From the IMG/VR virus record IMGVR_UViG_3300010354_000372, positions 1 through 30,578 of that record: 30,578 nt of DNA. One strand, written 5' to 3'. The translations under genes and the position numbers were made by a program. Positions 4,151-18,453 of this stretch are shown here, piece after piece. Within the stretch, counting starts at the first letter, position 1; each line of letters opens with the position of its first letter. Source of the stretch: a virus. The notes below the pieces were generated by a model. The model saw only the letters and a list, made by a program, of their open reading frames with translations. It was not told the DNA's origin and did no database searches.

Positions 4151-5324
4151 AACGTTTGCGCAGTTGATCTAGCGTAAGCTCGGATCCATCATCGCGCACC
4201 AGCTTGGCAATGGCATCACGCGCGCCATACTTATTCGCTAGGCGGTTGAAATATGGCACCTTGCTGGCGCCTAGCGCTTCGGCTTGCACGCTTTCCGGTT
4301 GGCTGGCAAGCCATTCGCCGTAGCTTTGATTGATTGGCACCTGCCCGCCAGCGCTAGCGCGTGTTGCTGTAGTAGATGGTGGCAGGATATCGGGGTCAAT
4401 AATAGGCACTGTCGTCGACCTGCAATTAAAGTGCTGCGGCGGCATCGGCCCCTTGCCATATTCAAATTCTCGGCCATCCAACGCACGACATATTGCGCTA
4501 GTGCGTGTATCAAGCGTCGCGACATAGCGGTACTTCTTGGTTACATCTTGATTGGCCTCATATACTTGCTGACTGGCAGCATTGGCAACTTGGTTGATGC
4601 TAGTGCGTACTAAGGCAACAATCTGATTATCGGCGACAGCTGTAGCTTGGCCGCCTGCTGCAATAGTTTGGCGTACAGTGCGCGCTTCTTCGCCGAATTG
4701 CAAGCTACCGATCAATCGCTTTGCTATCGCTGGTGTCGGCTCACCAGTTAGCAAACCTTGCCGCACCACTTGGCTAAAACGTTCCGCCTGGTCTACAGCA
4801 ATGCCGCGAAATGCTTTGCTAACTACTTCGCCATTGGGCAGCGTGATGGTAGCGCCCTGCGCTGCAGTCAAGCTAAATGTCTGCGGTGCGCCTTGCACTG
4901 CAGCAAATAGGTCATCACTGAGCGCTACCACATTGATCTGCGTTGGGTCAGTTGTAACTACTGACTGCGCAAATTGCGGGCTAATCTCTACAGTACGTAC
5001 CGCATCACGTGCGCCGGCTGGTAGTACACGTCGCAGTTGGTCGGTGACAAATTCAGATTGCAGCTGTGCAATACCTTGCAGTTCTGCTGCTGTAATCTCA
5101 GTAGCATCACCAGACCATCCATCGAGGCTACCTTTTAACTGCGCCAGTATCGCGCGCAATCGTGCTGCCTTAACAGGTGCCGCTAATTCATCAATCGCAC
5201 GTAGCTGATTGACCGCATCAATGATGATGTCGTTATAAGCGTTAATGATGCGCCGTGCTACTGAATTGCTAAACCGATTAAGGTCGAGCGCATTGCGATA
5301 TAACGCGGCCGGCGTGCTGCTCAT
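4137..5324 (-). CDS. Minor head/head morphogenesis protein (MuF, SPP1 gp7-like)
   Basis: A 395-residue protein directly downstream of the portal (4-base overlap), the usual place of MuF/gp7 proteins that enter the prohead and help DNA leave it. The diagnostic C-terminal block lies near residues 265-312: KKYRYVATLDTRTSAICRAL, DGREFEYGKG, then PPQHFNCRSTTVPI, with the conserved Cys, His and Cys residues. The N-terminal two thirds are helical and Ala/Gln-rich. No toxin or nuclease domain is visible at the C-terminus. Size and position fit the family well. Confidence 0.85.
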   Translation of the reverse strand: MSSTPAALYRNALDLNRFSNSVARRIINAYNDIIIDAVNQLRAIDELAAPVKAARLRAILAQLKGSLDGWSGDATEITAAELQGIAQLQSEFVTDQLRRVLPAGARDAVRTVEISPQFAQSVVTTDPTQINVVALSDDLFAAVQGAPQTFSLTAAQGATITLPNGEVVSKAFRGIAVDQAERFSQVVRQGLLTGEPTPAIAKRLIGSLQFGEEARTVRQTIAAGGQATAVADNQIVALVRTSINQVANAASQQVYEANQDVTKKYRYVATLDTRTSAICRALDGREFEYGKGPMPPQHFNCRSTTVPIIDPDILPPSTTATRASAGGQVPINQSYGEWLASQPESVQAEALGASKVPYFNRLANKYGARDAIAKLVRDDGSELTLDQLRKRYGTT

Positions 5325-6766
5325 GCGTCAACATCCATATCCTCAGTATCAGGCGATTCGGTAGGGATGATCGTTGTTTCGGCTGCCTGTTGCGGCTGCT
5401 CCATTTCAACCAGCCCGCCCTGTTGCGTTGCTTCTACTTCTTCTTCTACGTCAAAATCATCGCCCAACACTTCACCTTGCGCCAGGTTAGTGAGTAGTGT
5501 TTCCTGCGTGATTGTACCTGCCGTATAAAGCTGCAGCAATGCTGTAATCTCCTGCGGCTCCAATCTGGCGCCAAGGAAGTCACGGTTAACGTAGCTGCTA
5601 CCAACCTGGGTGATATTCAGGTACTGCGCATGATATGACAGGCAGTTGTCGATCATATCCTGCATTTGCTGCGCGATCACCATCATCGTGCTATCGCCTT
5701 GGCTGCGATCAATGCGCTTTGCTTCGGCAGTTTCAGCGCTTAACTTCTGGCCTAATACTGCAGACAGTCCTAGCTCATTGATCTGCCCTGCCAGCTGTTC
5801 AATGCGTCTGAATTGTGCATCAAATGCACCGGTAGGTGGTGCGATGTACTCTGCCCTGCCATCAGCTGGGAATGCGATAGCTTCGCCGGGGCCTGCTGAT
5901 ACCTCTTCTGCACTAGATGGGAAACCAAAGAATGCAAGCATCGGCACTGCACTAATGTGCAGCTGGTTGTCAAGGTCCGATTGCGCTTGATACGCCTTAA
6001 GGTTCAGCTCTGCAATATCTTCTAACGGCGGCCGTGATTCCAGCACGTTAACGCGGTTAGCGTATGCCACTGCAAATGGGATGCGATCAAGGCTTGTTGT
6101 ACCCTCTTCATATAGCTCGAAACTGCCTTTATCCGCCTTGCGATGCAGCTGGTAGCCGCCAGGCGTGAGCAATCTAATCTGAGCCACTACCTTCTCGCCA
6201 TAGTCGCCATCTGGCACGATGACAGACTCCTGCAGCCGCAATTGCGTTAGCTGCTGCTGGCCGTCGATCATCTCAGTGCGCCAGCCTAAAATCTCACGCG
6301 GTGTATAGCTGCACCAGTATGGTCTACCCTGCTGACCGGCTGCTGGCGCATCAACTAATACACCAACATGGCCGTAGCGGATCATTTTACGCGCAGTTTC
6401 ATATGTCCATACATTCAGGTCGTTACCTTGCAGGTCAACATCAAACAACTGCTCACGGACGATATCATCTACATCATTCAGCTTGACGGGTTTACGCGTT
6501 AGCATGCCAGCCAGCATGCGCTCCAGGCGCTGGTAATAAGGCGGCACTACAGACCGCGCCAGCCTGTTGTCATACGATTCGTCTAGCTCGCGTGGCTCCT
6601 GCGGTAGGTATCGCCGATGGCGGCGGCGGATTTCATACGTGCCGCCGATCAGGTCCTCGATCAGGATCCAATGTGGCTCCTGATTTTGCCACGCTTGGTT
6701 CGGGTCATTGATGCTGGCAACACGGCTAGCAACAGTGCGGTCGTAATGCTGGAAGCCGGTATACAT
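5321..6766 (-). CDS. Portal protein (DUF4055-like)
   Basis: A 481-residue protein forming the ring at the capsid vertex through which DNA is packaged. The start is ATG at 6766; a TTG one codon earlier is possible. N-terminal region: WILIEDLIGGTYEIRRRHRR, then LPQEPRELDESYDNRLARS and YYQRLERMLAGMLTRKPVKL. These are typical of the DUF4055 portal family, followed by the alpha/beta core (YGHVGVLVDAPA) and a helical stem and crown with an acidic, Gln-rich C-terminus. It sits between terminase/cyAbrB and the MuF-like gene, as expected for a portal. The family call comes from recognised motifs and was not searched. Confidence 0.87.
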   Translation of the reverse strand: MYTGFQHYDRTVASRVASINDPNQAWQNQEPHWILIEDLIGGTYEIRRRHRRYLPQEPRELDESYDNRLARSVVPPYYQRLERMLAGMLTRKPVKLNDVDDIVREQLFDVDLQGNDLNVWTYETARKMIRYGHVGVLVDAPAAGQQGRPYWCSYTPREILGWRTEMIDGQQQLTQLRLQESVIVPDGDYGEKVVAQIRLLTPGGYQLHRKADKGSFELYEEGTTSLDRIPFAVAYANRVNVLESRPPLEDIAELNLKAYQAQSDLDNQLHISAVPMLAFFGFPSSAEEVSAGPGEAIAFPADGRAEYIAPPTGAFDAQFRRIEQLAGQINELGLSAVLGQKLSAETAEAKRIDRSQGDSTMMVIAQQMQDMIDNCLSYHAQYLNITQVGSSYVNRDFLGARLEPQEITALLQLYTAGTITQETLLTNLAQGEVLGDDFDVEEEVEATQQGGLVEMEQPQQAAETTIIPTESPDTEDMDVDA

Positions 6767-6790
6767 CAATTTGCTATCGCCTAAGGCAGT

Positions 6791-6814
6791 CTAAAGGGCT
6801 GCAGATGCAGCCCC
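6791..6814 (-). terminator. Hairpin terminator after cyAbrB
   Basis: On the minus strand, eight bases after the cyAbrB stop codon, a perfect 7-bp stem (GGGCTGC / GCAGCCC) closes a 4-base loop and is followed by a short TTTAG tract. The U tract is short, so termination may be partial. Together with the promoter at 7197-7224 it makes cyAbrB look like a separate transcription unit between terminase and portal. Confidence 0.5.
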
Positions 6815-6821
6815 ATGTAGA

Positions 6822-7166
6822 TCAGGCAGCTTGGATGGCAGTAAGCGTAATATGCTTGCGGCCTACGTTGATCTCAAACTCATCGCCAGGTTCCATGCCC
6901 ATCTGGCGGAGGTAACCTTCGCCAATCTGTAGCTTGCCGTTAAATTGCACCTTAGCGCGGTAGGACAGTTTACGGCCTTTGCCATCGCCAGTGCTGGTGC
7001 CGATATCAATGCCTTTTGCCTCAAGCAATGCAGCATAGAACTCAGCGAATTTAACGCGTTGCTTGCCGTCCTTTTCTACGGTGTACCCACAAGCGCGGGC
7101 CATTTCAGTCTTGTTGATGCCTTCGCACTGCTTGACCTTGGCAAGCAGTTCAGTCCCGGTCAGCAT
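6822..7166 (-). CDS. Cyanobacterial-type AbrB transcription regulator (cyAbrB)
   Basis: A 114-residue protein close in length to host cyAbrB proteins (roughly 120-150 residues). The N-terminal part (MLTGTELLAKVKQCEGINKT, then EMARACGYTVEKDGKQR and KFAEFYAALLEAKG) and the C-terminal AbrB-like part (GRKLSYRAKVQFNGKLQIGE, then GYLRQMGMEPGDEFEINVGR and KHITL) match the two-part plan of cyAbrB. These cyanobacterial regulators influence carbon and nitrogen genes. In the host family the DNA-binding AbrB fold is C-terminal. The ATG at 7166 has no Shine-Dalgarno sequence, which is common in cyanobacteria. It has its own promoter with a perfect inverted repeat in the spacer and a following hairpin, so self-regulation is plausible. 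It was presumably acquired from a host. Confidence 0.9.
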   Translation of the reverse strand: MLTGTELLAKVKQCEGINKTEMARACGYTVEKDGKQRVKFAEFYAALLEAKGIDIGTSTGDGKGRKLSYRAKVQFNGKLQIGEGYLRQMGMEPGDEFEINVGRKHITLTAIQAA

Positions 7167-7196
7167 GGATTTGGATAGAACAAATGATGCAGGAGC

Positions 7197-7224
7197 ATAT
7201 TACAGCCAAATGGCTGGGATGCAA
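7197..7224 (-). promoter_or_regulatory. Sigma70-type promoter for cyAbrB
   Basis: Minus strand: -35 TTGCAT (7224-7219), a 16-bp spacer, -10 TAATAT (7202-7197) preceded by TG. Predicted transcription starts near 7190, about 24 bases before the ATG at 7166. The -35 begins two bases after the large-terminase stop codon, so the promoter fills the gap between the two genes. The spacer is almost wholly made of a perfect inverted repeat. Confidence 0.6.
7203..7216. promoter_or_regulatory. Perfect 14-bp inverted repeat, putative operator
   Basis: CAGCCA-AA-TGGCTG reads the same on both strands and lies between the -35 and -10 elements of the cyAbrB promoter. A dimeric regulator bound here would block RNA polymerase. 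cyAbrB itself is the natural candidate because it is the first gene served, but this is inference: AbrB-type proteins often recognise DNA shape more than a strict sequence. Confidence 0.5.
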
Positions 7225-7225
7225 G

Positions 7226-8575
7226 TCAATAAATGCGAATGCCAGTGCTACGGCCAGCGCCGGCATGAAGTGGGTTGAACTCACGCCACACTAGGTAGCC
7301 CAGTGCATCGTTCATGTGATCAAACCCTGCATCCTTATCTGGTTCGCCCTTATCGGTGTAGCACTGTAGCTCTAGGCATTCGATCAACCGCTTGCAGGTG
7401 TGCGATACCTGTAGCCGCACTTGGCCTTTGCCGTTTTCCAGCAAAGCTTGAACAGCAGCCACGCGATCACGGACGGGAGGATTTGCTTTTGGTGACTGGT
7501 TAGACATGCCATAGGATTCAAGGATGTTGATATCAGTTTGGCTTGCATTAGTGCTGCGGTTGCCGCCGCTGGCGTCTGGGTAAACGTACATCCGACGATT
7601 AGGGTACCGACTAGCGATTTGCTGCGCTAAGGCATCGGTATCATGCGCACCGCTGATCTCATCGATGATTAGCAGGTTATTGCCGAGTCGTATCGCGATA
7701 ACTGCTGACATGTTGCCGATGTTAAAGTCAACGCCAATGCGTAGCGGCTCGTCGTCAGTATCAGGCAGATCGCTGGTTACATGTTTAATGCGATCAAAGC
7801 GATCGTATACCTGACCGGCAGTGAGGTTAACGAACTCGCCATCTAGGTAAGCGCGTAGCAGGCTTGGGTCGTAGTTTGCTTCTAGACGTTCGATGAAGTC
7901 TGGCGGCAGGTGTGGGTTATCTGCGGTGCGCATCTTGATCAGATGCCGATCAGGTCTAGCTTTAGCTTCATCGCTGCCGAAGGTATTCCACATCCAGCGG
8001 AAGCCTTCTGGTGTTGATGCAGCGCCAAATTGACGGACGTTACCAGATCGCAAACGACCAAGGATTTTAGGAAATGCCTTGTTGGCAATGCTGGGCGTTA
8101 CGGTATCGATCTCATCTGCTAGCACCCATGCAAGGTTCAAGCCGATAATGCGGCTCCAGTTCTCAAAGCTACGGCATAGGATTTTGGTATCACCGCCTGG
8201 CAGGTGCAGCATGTACTCAGGCAACGGTGACGCCCTAAAGGTATACGGAATCTCGTATGCCTCTAGAAAGCTTTCAAAGTCCGTCTGCCAAATGTCGCGG
8301 ATCAGCGGGCCGGTTGGTTCCATTACGGCGCCAATGAAACCTTGATTGGCTGCGGCCAGCATTACCGCTTTAGCGCATAGGGCACGGGTTTTACCAGCGC
8401 CATAACCAGCTGAGATACCAAGTATCTGCGTGCTGGTGTCATCTACAAAGGCAAGTTGGCCGGGGTGTAGGTCAGCGCGGATGCGAGTTAACAGATCAGG
8501 GACATCAATATCACCATTGCCGTAATTAAGTTGCTGCAGGACGCTGCCAGTAGGTGCTGTAGCAAGGATGCTCAC
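7226..8575 (-). CDS. terL: Terminase large subunit
   Basis: About 449 residues; the ATP-driven motor and nuclease that packages phage DNA. GTG at 8575 overlaps the small-terminase stop as GTGA; a TTG at 8581 is the alternative. Walker A SAGYGAGKT lies near residue 55, Walker B WVLADEID near 150, and the coupling motif AASTPEG near 185. The C-terminal RNase H-like nuclease shows acidic residues in GVDFNIGN (about 283), YPDASGG (about 334) and the GFDHMNDALGY block (about 419-423). All motifs are intact, so it should be functional. It ends just before the cyAbrB promoter. Confidence 0.93.
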   Translation of the reverse strand: MSILATAPTGSVLQQLNYGNGDIDVPDLLTRIRADLHPGQLAFVDDTSTQILGISAGYGAGKTRALCAKAVMLAAANQGFIGAVMEPTGPLIRDIWQTDFESFLEAYEIPYTFRASPLPEYMLHLPGGDTKILCRSFENWSRIIGLNLAWVLADEIDTVTPSIANKAFPKILGRLRSGNVRQFGAASTPEGFRWMWNTFGSDEAKARPDRHLIKMRTADNPHLPPDFIERLEANYDPSLLRAYLDGEFVNLTAGQVYDRFDRIKHVTSDLPDTDDEPLRIGVDFNIGNMSAVIAIRLGNNLLIIDEISGAHDTDALAQQIASRYPNRRMYVYPDASGGNRSTNASQTDINILESYGMSNQSPKANPPVRDRVAAVQALLENGKGQVRLQVSHTCKRLIECLELQCYTDKGEPDKDAGFDHMNDALGYLVWREFNPLHAGAGRSTGIRIY

Positions 8576-8895
8576 GAGCAAAGCTGCGCCAGTTTTGCAG
8601 CGGTGTTAATGGCACCGAGTGCGATGTGATATTGACCGGCTCGGCGTGCTTCCATCTGGAGGGTGGAGCACTGACTAAGCAGATCAGCGATCATCTGGGG
8701 GCGTTCGATGTCCCAGTCGGCCTTGAGCTTGTCGCGTGCAACTCGCAGGTAAAGATCGCAGGCGTCGTCTTTGACCCCCCAGTTTTCCCGGGCGTAGCGG
8801 ATGCAATCTGACCGCCGACCGCCGGACGCAATGATGCGTGCGAAGCGTTCAGCGCGTTCAAGGGTTTCTTGTTTTGGGCCTCTGGGGGCTGCCAT
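8572..8895 (-). CDS. Putative terminase small subunit
   Basis: A 107-residue protein whose ATG overlaps the methyltransferase stop (TGATG) and whose stop overlaps the large-terminase start. The N-terminal helix-turn-helix-like segment (GRRSDCIRYARENWGVKDDA) and the following amphipathic helices (MIADLLSQCSTLQMEARRAG, then YHIALGAINTAAKLAQL) match the small-terminase plan of a DNA-binding HTH plus an oligomerisation region. The assignment rests on this plan and on position immediately before terL. Confidence 0.75.
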   Translation of the reverse strand: MAAPRGPKQETLERAERFARIIASGGRRSDCIRYARENWGVKDDACDLYLRVARDKLKADWDIERPQMIADLLSQCSTLQMEARRAGQYHIALGAINTAAKLAQLCS

Positions 8896-10079
8896 CAGGC
8901 TGATTCCTGTTGCTCCGAGAAGTGGTCGGTGGAGGGTATGCAGACGGCGGTGTTACCGGTGAAGTCTTCCCAGCGCTTGACGATGACGTCGCAGTAGGCG
9001 GGGTCGAGTTCCATCATGCGGCAGTGTCGTGAAGTCTTCTCGCAAGCGATGAGGGTGGTGCCTGAGCCGCCGAACAGGTCAACGATGAGCTGGCCAGGCT
9101 TAGTGTCTTTCTCAATGGCACGAACAGGAAGCTCGCAGGGTTTTTGAGTTGGATGCGCTTTTAAGTGCTCATCGGTCATATGTATGCGGCGGACAAACCA
9201 CAGCTCTTTCTTAGCTTTGGGGTATCGCCAGCACAGCTCAAAGGATGAGCCAAAGACCTTGTTTTCGTCTTCTGAGTGAGCTTCGGCCCAGACGAGAGTT
9301 GAACCTTGATCCCAGATTGGAATTGAGTTGCAGAAATAGTCTGCGCCCCAGATATACCAGACAGGTGACGGCAACAGACGCATCATTGCGCCAGCGTCAA
9401 AGGGCTTGTCGTCGTCGTGAACAGGCTTGTAGGACTTGGTTGAAGTCCCCATTTTTGAGTAGTCGGTATCTAAGTTCATTCCATAAGGCGGATCTGTAAA
9501 TACCATGTCCGCCTTCTTGCCATCCATGAGGCTTTCAACGTGCTGGACGTTGGTGGAGTCACCACAGAGCAGGCGATGGTTGCCGAGGATCCAGAGGTCA
9601 CCGGGCTTTGTCGTCGGTTCCTGTGGAACCTCCGGGACCTCATCGGGGTCAGTGTTGCCTTCAACAGGCTCTAGCTGCTCGGCATCGTTAAGCAGGGCAT
9701 CTAGGTCTTCTGGCTCAAACCACGGTTCTAGATCGTGTTCTTCACTGAGTTGGCGCAGCATCTCATTGTCCCATTCGGACAGATCCGATGTGCGGTTATC
9801 AGCAAGAGCAAGACCTACCTTTTCGTCTTCGGATAGGCCAGCGCGACGTACGGCGATGAGTTCGTCACCTTCTGCTTCAATAACGCGGACTTTATTGATA
9901 CCAGCCTTTTTAGCACCTTCTACGGTGCCATTACCTGCAAGGATGCGCCCGTCTTCATCAATGACGATGCTGCGGGCTGCACCGTAACGCTTCAGGGATT
10001 CAGCGATCAATGTAGCCGAGCGATCAGTACGTCGCCGTGCATTTTTATGATCTGATTTTAGATCTTTGATGGAAGCCAT
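8895..10079 (-). CDS. ParB-like nuclease domain fused to a beta-class DNA methyltransferase
   Basis: A 394-residue protein. Residues about 1-100 are a ParB/Srx-like domain (the GRILAGNGTVEGAKKAG block is its core). Residues about 155-385 are a DNA N6-adenine/N4-cytosine methyltransferase: catalytic DPPY at 196-199, HPTQKP at 309-314 and the AdoMet-binding DLFGGSGTT at 334-342. The catalytic motif before the AdoMet motif defines the beta class. The linker is acidic (EPVEGNTDPDEVPEVPQEP). No partner restriction gene is visible, so it is an orphan methyltransferase that may protect phage DNA from host restriction or mark it for packaging. Codon use looks richer in G/C third positions than the adjacent clamp gene, hinting at a separate origin. 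Confidence 0.88.
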   Translation of the reverse strand: MASIKDLKSDHKNARRRTDRSATLIAESLKRYGAARSIVIDEDGRILAGNGTVEGAKKAGINKVRVIEAEGDELIAVRRAGLSEDEKVGLALADNRTSDLSEWDNEMLRQLSEEHDLEPWFEPEDLDALLNDAEQLEPVEGNTDPDEVPEVPQEPTTKPGDLWILGNHRLLCGDSTNVQHVESLMDGKKADMVFTDPPYGMNLDTDYSKMGTSTKSYKPVHDDDKPFDAGAMMRLLPSPVWYIWGADYFCNSIPIWDQGSTLVWAEAHSEDENKVFGSSFELCWRYPKAKKELWFVRRIHMTDEHLKAHPTQKPCELPVRAIEKDTKPGQLIVDLFGGSGTTLIACEKTSRHCRMMELDPAYCDVIVKRWEDFTGNTAVCIPSTDHFSEQQESA

Positions 10080-12979: not shown

Positions 12980-13417
12980 ATGAGGGATGCAATCCACCTA
13001 GCGATCAACGGCATCGAACCAGCGCCGCAGGGCAGCAAGCGGCACGTTGGTGGTGGCCGGATGGTTGAATCCAGCAAGCGCGTAGCGCCATGGCGTGAGG
13101 CGATCAGGCAGGAGGCTGTAGCAAGCGGCATTGCACTGGTTACAGATGCCGTATCGGTGTCGGTTGTATTTCGATTTCTGCGACCAGCAGGTCATTACAA
13201 AAAGGACGGCAGCCTGAAGCCAAATGCACCGGTGCATCTGACGACAAGACGCGGCGACCTGGACAAACTGCTGCGTAGCACGCTGGATGGGTTGACCGGT
13301 GCGCTACTGGCTGATGACGCGCTGGTGGTAAGCATTACGGCTAGCAAGCGGTATGCGGTAGGCAGCGAGCTGCCAGGCGCGGCGCTAACCATCATCCCGC
13401 TAGGCGCTGATCGCTGA
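12980..13417 (+). CDS. rusA: RusA-family Holliday junction resolvase
   Basis: A 145-residue endodeoxyribonuclease that cuts four-way DNA junctions. The start is ATG at 12980; an in-frame upstream ATG at 12944 would overlap the divergent gene's start region. The RusA signature is at residues about 91-123: RGDLDKLLRSTLDGL, then ADDALVV and ASKRY, with the conserved Asp residues (D93, D103, D112/D113) and Lys residues (K96, K123). The N-terminal NGIEPAPQGSKRHV segment is also typical. Works with the exonuclease and annealing protein downstream to process replication and recombination intermediates. Its stop overlaps the next ORF as TGATG. Confidence 0.88.
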   Translation: MRDAIHLAINGIEPAPQGSKRHVGGGRMVESSKRVAPWREAIRQEAVASGIALVTDAVSVSVVFRFLRPAGHYKKDGSLKPNAPVHLTTRRGDLDKLLRSTLDGLTGALLADDALVVSITASKRYAVGSELPGAALTIIPLGADR

Positions 13418-13599
13418 TGCGCGTGCTGGTTGCATGTGAATACAGCGGCCGTGTACGTGATGCATTTCGGCGTCGCGGCCATGACGCATGGAGCTGCGAC
13501 CTACTGGAATGCGAAGGCGATGCCAGCTGGCATTTGCAGCAGCTTGCCACGGGCTTGGGGGAATCAGGCGTCCCATTTCCCATGGCCAGGGGGGTGTAG
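13417..13599 (+). pseudogene. Truncated DNA methyltransferase-like ORF (N-terminal remnant)
   Basis: A 60-codon ORF beginning MRVLVACEYSGRVRDAFRRR, then GHDAWSCDLLECEG and WHLQ. This matches the first 40 or so residues of a phage family usually annotated as DNA (cytosine) methyltransferase, whose full members run past 150 residues. After WHLQ the reading turns to unrelated sequence and stops at TAG. The catalytic part (in the family a PP-C or DPP-type motif follows) is absent, and no frame downstream restores it. ATG overlaps the RusA stop (TGATG). Either a deletion scar or a short protein kept for another reason. Confidence 0.65.
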
Positions 13600-17532: not shown

Positions 17533-18453
17533 ATGACTGATTCAGTTAAGGAATACCTTAACGCCATCGCACGTTACCCCCTGCTATCCGCTGAGCAGGA
17601 GATCCAACTGTCGCGTCAAGTGCAGGCAATGCGCGAAATTGATGCCGCTGCTGAATTGACACCTCAGCAGCGACGCATCGTAAAACGCGGTCATAAGGCA
17701 AAGAACACAATCATCAGCTGCAACCTACGCTTAGTAGTTCATGTAGCAAAGAAATACATGCGCCGCTTAGGTGGTAGCAACATGGAATTGATGGACCTTA
17801 TCCAAGAAGGCAATGTAGGCCTCCATCGTGCCGCTGAATTGTTTGACGGCACCAAGGGTTATAAATTTTCGACGTATGCCTTCTGGTGGATACGACAGGC
17901 GATAACACGCGCTATTGATACGCAGGAGCGTATGATCCGTGTACCGCAGCACAACTTAGAGCGTATCTACCGTGCTATCAAAGTACAGGAAGAATACGCT
18001 AGGCAGCATGGACGGTCGCCATCAATGGCTGAACTGGCGCAGCTAATGGAAATTGAAGTAAACGAACTGGTAATGTTGCTATCGCGTAATGTACAGATCA
18101 AAAGCCTTGACAGCCTAGTAGCGGATGACGGCAGCCCGCTAATTGATTTTATTGCTGATGAAAGCCCACTTAATGAAGAGCATACATACGCTGAACAAAG
18201 CGAGCGCATGGAGCAGCTGCAGCTGGCCTTTTTTCGTCTAGACAAAGATGACAGGAATGCTGTAGCTAAACGCTACGGTATCTATGGGCTTGAGCCGAAG
18301 AGTAATGCCGATATCGCCCGCGAGGAAGGCGTTAGCCGTGAGCGCATTCGGCAGCGTGTACAAAAGGCAGAACGCAAACTGCGCTTATTGATGGGCGGTC
18401 AATTTACAAGATCTTCCACCATGGACGCCGCCTGGCGTGACGCGATTGCATGA
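17533..18453 (+). CDS. RpoD-like sigma factor (group 2 type)
   Basis: A 306-residue sigma70-family factor. Region 1.2 (residues 1-32), region 2 (about 60-130: NLRLVVHVAKKYMRRLGG, MDLIQEGNVGLHRA, FSTYAFWWIRQAITRAI), region 3 (about 138-200) and region 4 (about 222-288: RYGIYGLEPKSNADIAREEG, VSRERIRQRVQKAERKL). Region 1.1 is absent, as in the short group 2 sigma factors of cyanobacteria. The region 2.4 residues that read TATAAT and the region 4.2 RERIRQ that reads TTGACA are intact, so consensus-type promoters should be recognised. It closes the plus-strand operon. Likely taken from a host; it would steer host RNA polymerase to phage promoters. Confidence 0.92.
   Translation: MTDSVKEYLNAIARYPLLSAEQEIQLSRQVQAMREIDAAAELTPQQRRIVKRGHKAKNTIISCNLRLVVHVAKKYMRRLGGSNMELMDLIQEGNVGLHRAAELFDGTKGYKFSTYAFWWIRQAITRAIDTQERMIRVPQHNLERIYRAIKVQEEYARQHGRSPSMAELAQLMEIEVNELVMLLSRNVQIKSLDSLVADDGSPLIDFIADESPLNEEHTYAEQSERMEQLQLAFFRLDKDDRNAVAKRYGIYGLEPKSNADIAREEGVSRERIRQRVQKAERKLRLLMGGQFTRSSTMDAAWRDAIA

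Follow-up and report, generated by a model that had tools for sequence, protein, structure and literature searches.

The locus described here raises the question of what a cyanobacterial AbrB-type (cyAbrB) gene is doing among the packaging and head genes of a virus, and how it came to be there. The window, by which we mean the whole stretch of DNA analysed, is a single viral record of 30,578 bases, and it belongs to a KBS-S-2A-like cyanosiphovirus. Its minus-strand genes follow the order methyltransferase, TerS, TerL, cyAbrB, portal and Mu F-like head protein, and the three that matter most are these:

7226-8581, minus strand: TerL, the large terminase (PF03237/PF17289, phrog_2), upstream neighbour of cyAbrB
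6822-7166, minus strand: cyAbrB, a complete gene of 114 aa with its ATG at 7166 and a PF14250 match
5321-6766, minus strand: portal protein (phrog_145), downstream neighbour of cyAbrB

The preliminary description of this DNA had placed a complete cyAbrB between large terminase and portal, and this holds: the open reading frame is intact, and the range of 6822-7226 given there comprises the gene plus a 5' gap of 59 nt, its right end being the TerL stop. The protein matches the AbrB-like family PF14250 over the whole domain (88.7 bits, E 2.8e-25, against a curated Pfam cut-off of 25), as part of a cyAbrB set in which all 69 of 69 aligned members were matched. It consists of an N-terminal cyAbrB region, with Cys26 in an R-x-C-G-Y motif that is at least 90% conserved in our alignments, and, in the C-terminal part (within residues 42-108), a predicted DNA-binding domain of AbrB-like (swapped-hairpin) type, and it carries no acidic tail. 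Searches against PHROGs and the PDB sequences returned nothing significant. The AlphaFold monomer model is of middling quality (pLDDT 75, pTM 0.41), and its best Foldseek matches include the AbrB N-domain, SpoVT, MazE and Sso7c4, with probabilities up to 0.98-0.99 and weak E values (0.065 or worse). The database search and tree also bore out the assignment, as the protein falls in cyAbrB and groups with picocyanobacterial paralogs.

How general is this arrangement? A profile scan of IMG/VR found 240 cyAbrB relatives, of which 80 were kept, and the same TerL and/or portal family lies next to or near cyAbrB in 79 of the 82 contexts examined, a set of loci that contains redundancy. The usual spacing is 24 nt between TerL and cyAbrB and 26 nt between cyAbrB and portal; in the three exceptions (L006-L008) the head module is an unrelated one, and cyAbrB follows its capsid gene. 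Cultured relatives of the virus infect Synechococcus WH7803 (KBS-S-2A, S-H1) or Prochlorococcus (MED4-184, MED4-117, P-HS2) and share 74-83% identity with the window in TerL and 62-79% in portal, with KBS-S-2A and S-H1 at 79-83% and 75-79%. cyAbrB is absent from all five: the terL-portal junction holds nothing in MED4-184, and other ORFs in KBS-S-2A and S-H1. The phages that do carry the gene belong to a widespread virus family that seems to be undescribed.

Of the 70 nearest IMG/VR portal relatives with both flanks present, 49 have an empty junction, 11 carry cyAbrB there and 10 carry other genes, so that the gene is absent from this very position in most close relatives, as would be the case for a moron insertion. 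Mapped on a tree of 68 representative portals, cyAbrB presence requires 9 changes (6 of them forced by supported branches), compared with 22.9 in shuffles, which makes cyAbrB a cargo gene that clusters on the tree but has repeatedly been gained, lost or exchanged; judged by gene content, the TerL-portal junction is best described as a cargo site with optional cyAbrB. The suggestion that the gene interrupts the head operon like a late insertion is therefore partly right, in that the site is optional, but the insertion is old: the cyAbrB clade is kept at the junction in more than 100 contigs, and its presence is patchy on the portal tree. In five other relatives (L338, L346, L350, L359, L387) the junction holds different, partly repetitive basic ORFs, and it may be a general cargo locus. 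A 60-aa ORF elsewhere in the window, 13417-13599 on the plus strand, looks like a truncated form of a longer ORF (MRVLVACEYSGRVRDAFRRRGH...) found at the TerL-portal site of L340 and L341, whose N-terminus it resembles. As a further sign of exchange in the region, one relative (L002) is 97-100% identical to the window over most shared genes, whereas TerS is only 30% identical and the methyltransferase is unmatched, so that the segment at 8572-10079 was probably exchanged recently.

A typical cyanobacterial genome holds two cyAbrBs. A group of cyanobacterial genomes of 1.6-3.7 Mb holds two to seven each, with the common motif MLTGSELLAKVKELGD..GRKLSY...PGDEFEIKLGRK, and we call this group picocyanobacterial on the basis of genome size, the motif and the hosts of the cultured phage relatives. 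These copies had to be found with an alignment query, as scanning the genomes with just the window protein gave no match. In a 123-row tree, which is limited by its 121 columns, by a bootstrap that is not fully settled and by a sampling that favours the query's relatives, the late-locus copies (44 from TerL-portal junctions and 3 from the capsid module) form one group with support of 98/85, repeated in an 81-row tree at 99/90, and the phage copies together with the picocyanobacterial paralogs separate from those of other cyanobacteria at 100/99. The window copy does not resemble a recent host-like acquisition, since the best cyanobacterial identity is at most 62% among the 386 genomes searched and the late-locus copies have a clade of their own. 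On the evidence of sequence, synteny and these trees, the window gene is a domesticated picocyanobacterial cyAbrB in one old phage clade. The cyAbrBs of other, larger viral contigs scatter among the host paralogs in the 123-row tree, which suggests separate acquisitions. These contigs (L233-L250, L254, L258, L262), several of them of 44-82 kb, carry host-like cyAbrBs, most of which keep an acidic tail; sigma genes or genes of RusA-like or exonuclease-like type often lie nearby, and TerL was detectable in 7 of 17. On two Acaryochloris plasmids (L091, L092) cyAbrB stands beside an HU gene, followed in one of them by a sigma factor gene. Annotated phages hold almost no match. P-TIM68 was rejected as a carrier because the match is limited to 50 N-terminal residues. 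AP013549 (Krakvirus, MedDCM), a marine podovirus, has an annotated AbrB-family gene that also lies next to virion genes, but it is only 29% identical, follows tail genes and falls outside the late-locus clade on a very long branch (length 10), because of which it was left out of the tree.

The late-locus copies differ from the host proteins in several ways. Their median length is 110 aa, compared with 121 aa in picocyanobacterial hosts; the acidic tail is lost, the net charge of the last 12 residues being +1.25 versus -3.36 (p 1e-13); and the whole protein is more basic (+4.4 versus +0.9, p 2e-12), both p values being optimistic because the rows are related. They retain the RxCGY Cys, which is near-invariant. 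In Synechocystis cyAbrB2, C34 is glutathionylated (PMC13421787), and the phage Cys26, at the same position, is presumably its equivalent. The median dN/dS of the late-locus gene is about 0.23, compared with 0.09 for portal and 0.15 for host cyAbrB, and no value exceeded 1 in 532 pairs, which points to purifying selection. Such constraint, and the persistence of the clade over large divergence, are hard to reconcile with a selfish or neutral cargo gene that brings little benefit and merely occupies a permissive insertion site; even with the junction empty or filled by other ORFs in most near relatives, we regard this as the least probable of the explanations considered. The same features bear on the idea that the phage protein acts like the host regulator on carbon, nitrogen and energy genes, tuning metabolism for phage production. 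Host cyAbrBs govern C/N, hydrogenase and atpT genes, and the phage copy still has the N-terminal domain along with the regulatory Cys; yet the loss of the acidic tail speaks against simple mimicry, and a position in the head region suggests late expression, when reprogramming would pay less. A metabolic takeover of this kind seems to us somewhat unlikely but a serious contender.

If the gene has been kept for its product, when and how is it expressed? The preliminary description had given it its own sigma70-type promoter and a hairpin terminator. A consensus promoter and terminator scan of the window flagged neither, the former because TTGACT and TGTAAT/TAATAT (7204-7197) are 19-21 nt apart, a spacing beyond the range of 16-18, and a comparative analysis of the upstream regions of relatives was used instead. 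The elements discussed are the following:

7194-7229, minus strand: cyAbrB promoter-like element, with a -10 conserved at this offset in relatives and a predicted start near 7190
7202-7197 or 7199-7194, minus strand: -10 candidates TAATAT or TATGCT, respectively
7229-7224, minus strand: TTGACT, -35-like, poorly spaced, overlapping the TerL stop
6795-6814, minus strand: GC-rich hairpin of 8 bp between cyAbrB and portal, MFE z -2.7
6788-6793, minus strand: portal -10-like element TAGACT, of a class conserved in relatives

A -10-like hexamer occurs within the -40 to -10 window in 78% of 50 non-redundant cyAbrB upstreams versus 25% in shuffles, mostly as TATATT or TATACT and in most cases about 30-34 nt before the start. 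Upstream of portal, hexamers of the TAAACT/TACACT/TAGACT/TACAAT type are found in 95% of 65 non-redundant sequences versus 24% in shuffles, and also at empty junctions, while the same test gave only 0-7% upstream of TerL, MuF, MCP (capsid) and DnaN. Anchored on the -10, a base is conserved 7 positions past the hexamer, G at cyAbrB and A at portal, where the start site would be. The cyAbrB hexamer overlaps the end of terL (RLY-stop) in part of the set, so that coding constraint contributes to its conservation; it persists where the upstream gene is a different one (L006-L008, L010). The notion that gaps of 24 or 26 nt are too short for a promoter was rejected, as the -10 sits at or over the terL stop. 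The claim of a sigma70-type promoter thus survives in its -10 and not in its -35, for which no conservation was found among the upstreams of cyAbrB relatives, and comparative conservation supports a putative transcription start for cyAbrB separate from that of portal. In six loci (L003, L004, L006-L008, L017) a conserved leader, roughly ATTTACYCTACCCATG and with no Shine-Dalgarno, precedes the start codon, and the unrelated head module has it as well, as though the gene had travelled with its 5' region. A TAAACT/TACACT -10-like element also lies upstream of the minus-strand gene at 472-1032 in 8 of 9 relatives (89% versus 10% in shuffles), and its sequence suggests a wider phage promoter class.

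At the other end of the gene the hairpin itself (6814-6795) is real; it is followed only by UU(U), and it abuts the portal -10 (6793-6788). The short U-run and the abutting -10 make the label of terminator plausible but unproven, and a weak terminator or an insulator is possible. Of 25 portal starts with cyAbrB, 6 have a hairpin that abuts the portal -10, where 1.1 would be expected, and of 21 empty junctions none has one; in most relatives the hairpin is absent. In KBS-S-2A and S-H1 the portal -10 (TAAACT/TAGACT) is likewise preceded by a hairpin, there a strong terminator. A stand-alone transcript of 0.35 kb is doubtful, because the 26-nt gap to portal in most relatives leaves no room for a terminator and the U-run of the window is poor. 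From its position we infer that cyAbrB would be made together with the head genes, at their time, and yet be separately startable, the promoter being supported by conservation. Could the protein be a local timing device, which binds the TerL-portal promoter region and adjusts head-gene transcription as an autoregulated late switch? Two conserved -10 elements flank the gene, and its location is fixed in two unrelated head modules. Nevertheless, phages with an empty junction keep the portal -10 and manage without cyAbrB, and no conserved operator was found beyond the -10 and start region, so that we consider such a switch unlikely.

Of the functional ideas raised for this gene, displacement of the host protein, or counter-silencing, is the better grounded, since host cyAbrB2 has been described as a nucleoid protein that binds AT-rich and IS DNA and keeps SigA and SigE away from it, with a role against foreign DNA proposed by the authors (PMC11368403). 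The phage gene is homologous to precisely such a protein, one that binds AT-rich foreign DNA (PMC11368403). We favour, with a probability of roughly 0.42, the reading that it encodes a homolog of host nucleoid proteins which relieves silencing by competing or co-assembling with the cyAbrB of the host. Transcribed from the conserved promoter just downstream of terL, the product would dimerise via its AbrB-type C-terminal domain and bind DNA broadly, competing with the host cyAbrB nucleoid proteins or co-assembling with them into heteromers. Having no tail and more positive charge, it would tend to bind DNA constitutively. The silencing of phage DNA by the host would then be relieved, and RNA polymerase re-routed to phage promoters, possibly with a phage sigma factor. 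Against this counter-silencing role, an anti-silencing factor might be expected early and not in the head region, and most close relatives do without the gene. Dispensability at the locus also weighs against a virion or packaging protein, carried with the genome or assisting its translocation; the late-clade copies always lie inside packaging or head modules, as such a protein would, but AbrB folds are not known to serve in packaging, and we find this very unlikely.

A candidate partner for counter-silencing is encoded in the window:

17533-18453, plus strand: sigma-70-type RNA polymerase sigma factor

Its identity to the related factor of KBS-S-2A is 46%, and to the S-CBS1 factor 45.5%. The gene is present in 11 of 12 phages with cyAbrB and in 2 of 10 without it, an association that we rejected as an independent signal because it is confounded by ancestry (1 independent pair). 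It is conceivable, if improbable on present evidence, that the tail-less cyAbrB and the phage sigma form a two-part takeover, in which the former unsilences or remodels DNA and the latter reads TANNNT-type promoters; if so, cyAbrB would be the cyanobacterial counterpart of H-NS/Lsr2 in the silencing conflict between phage and host.

Phage-borne nucleoid-protein homologs are already known. Lsr2-type homologs, whose acquisition histories are complex, occur in actinophages, and these xenogeneic silencers (e.g., CgpS) are likewise diverged phage copies of an AT-rich-binding nucleoid protein of the host phylum (PMC8612146). The phage cyAbrB differs in belonging to the unrelated AbrB-like family and in forming one lineage at a fixed head locus, while copies of Lsr2 lie dispersed over the tree, with an enrichment in temperate phages (PMC8612146). 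It resembles Synechocystis cyAbrB1 (Sll0359) and cyAbrB2 (Sll0822), both PF14250, in architecture, N-terminal region, Cys and AbrB-like domain, and is set apart from them by its head/packaging locus, the missing acidic C-tail, its more basic character and its own clade. AbrB or nucleoid proteins of cyanophages are undescribed in the literature searched, judged from titles, abstracts and hit counts, and so is a cyAbrB family of these phages that is dedicated to a late locus.

Picocyanobacteria rank among the major primary producers. For Synechocystis, a role of cyAbrB against foreign DNA, similar to that of H-NS/Lsr2, has been put forward, and whether cyAbrB is such a defence can be tested directly with a large phage family that keeps an altered cyAbrB. 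The promoter map, with TAAACT at portal and TATAYT at cyAbrB, also defines transcription units open to testing in a group of phages of which few are in culture. In such infections, the phage cyAbrB may help to override the host's DNA packaging and silencing.
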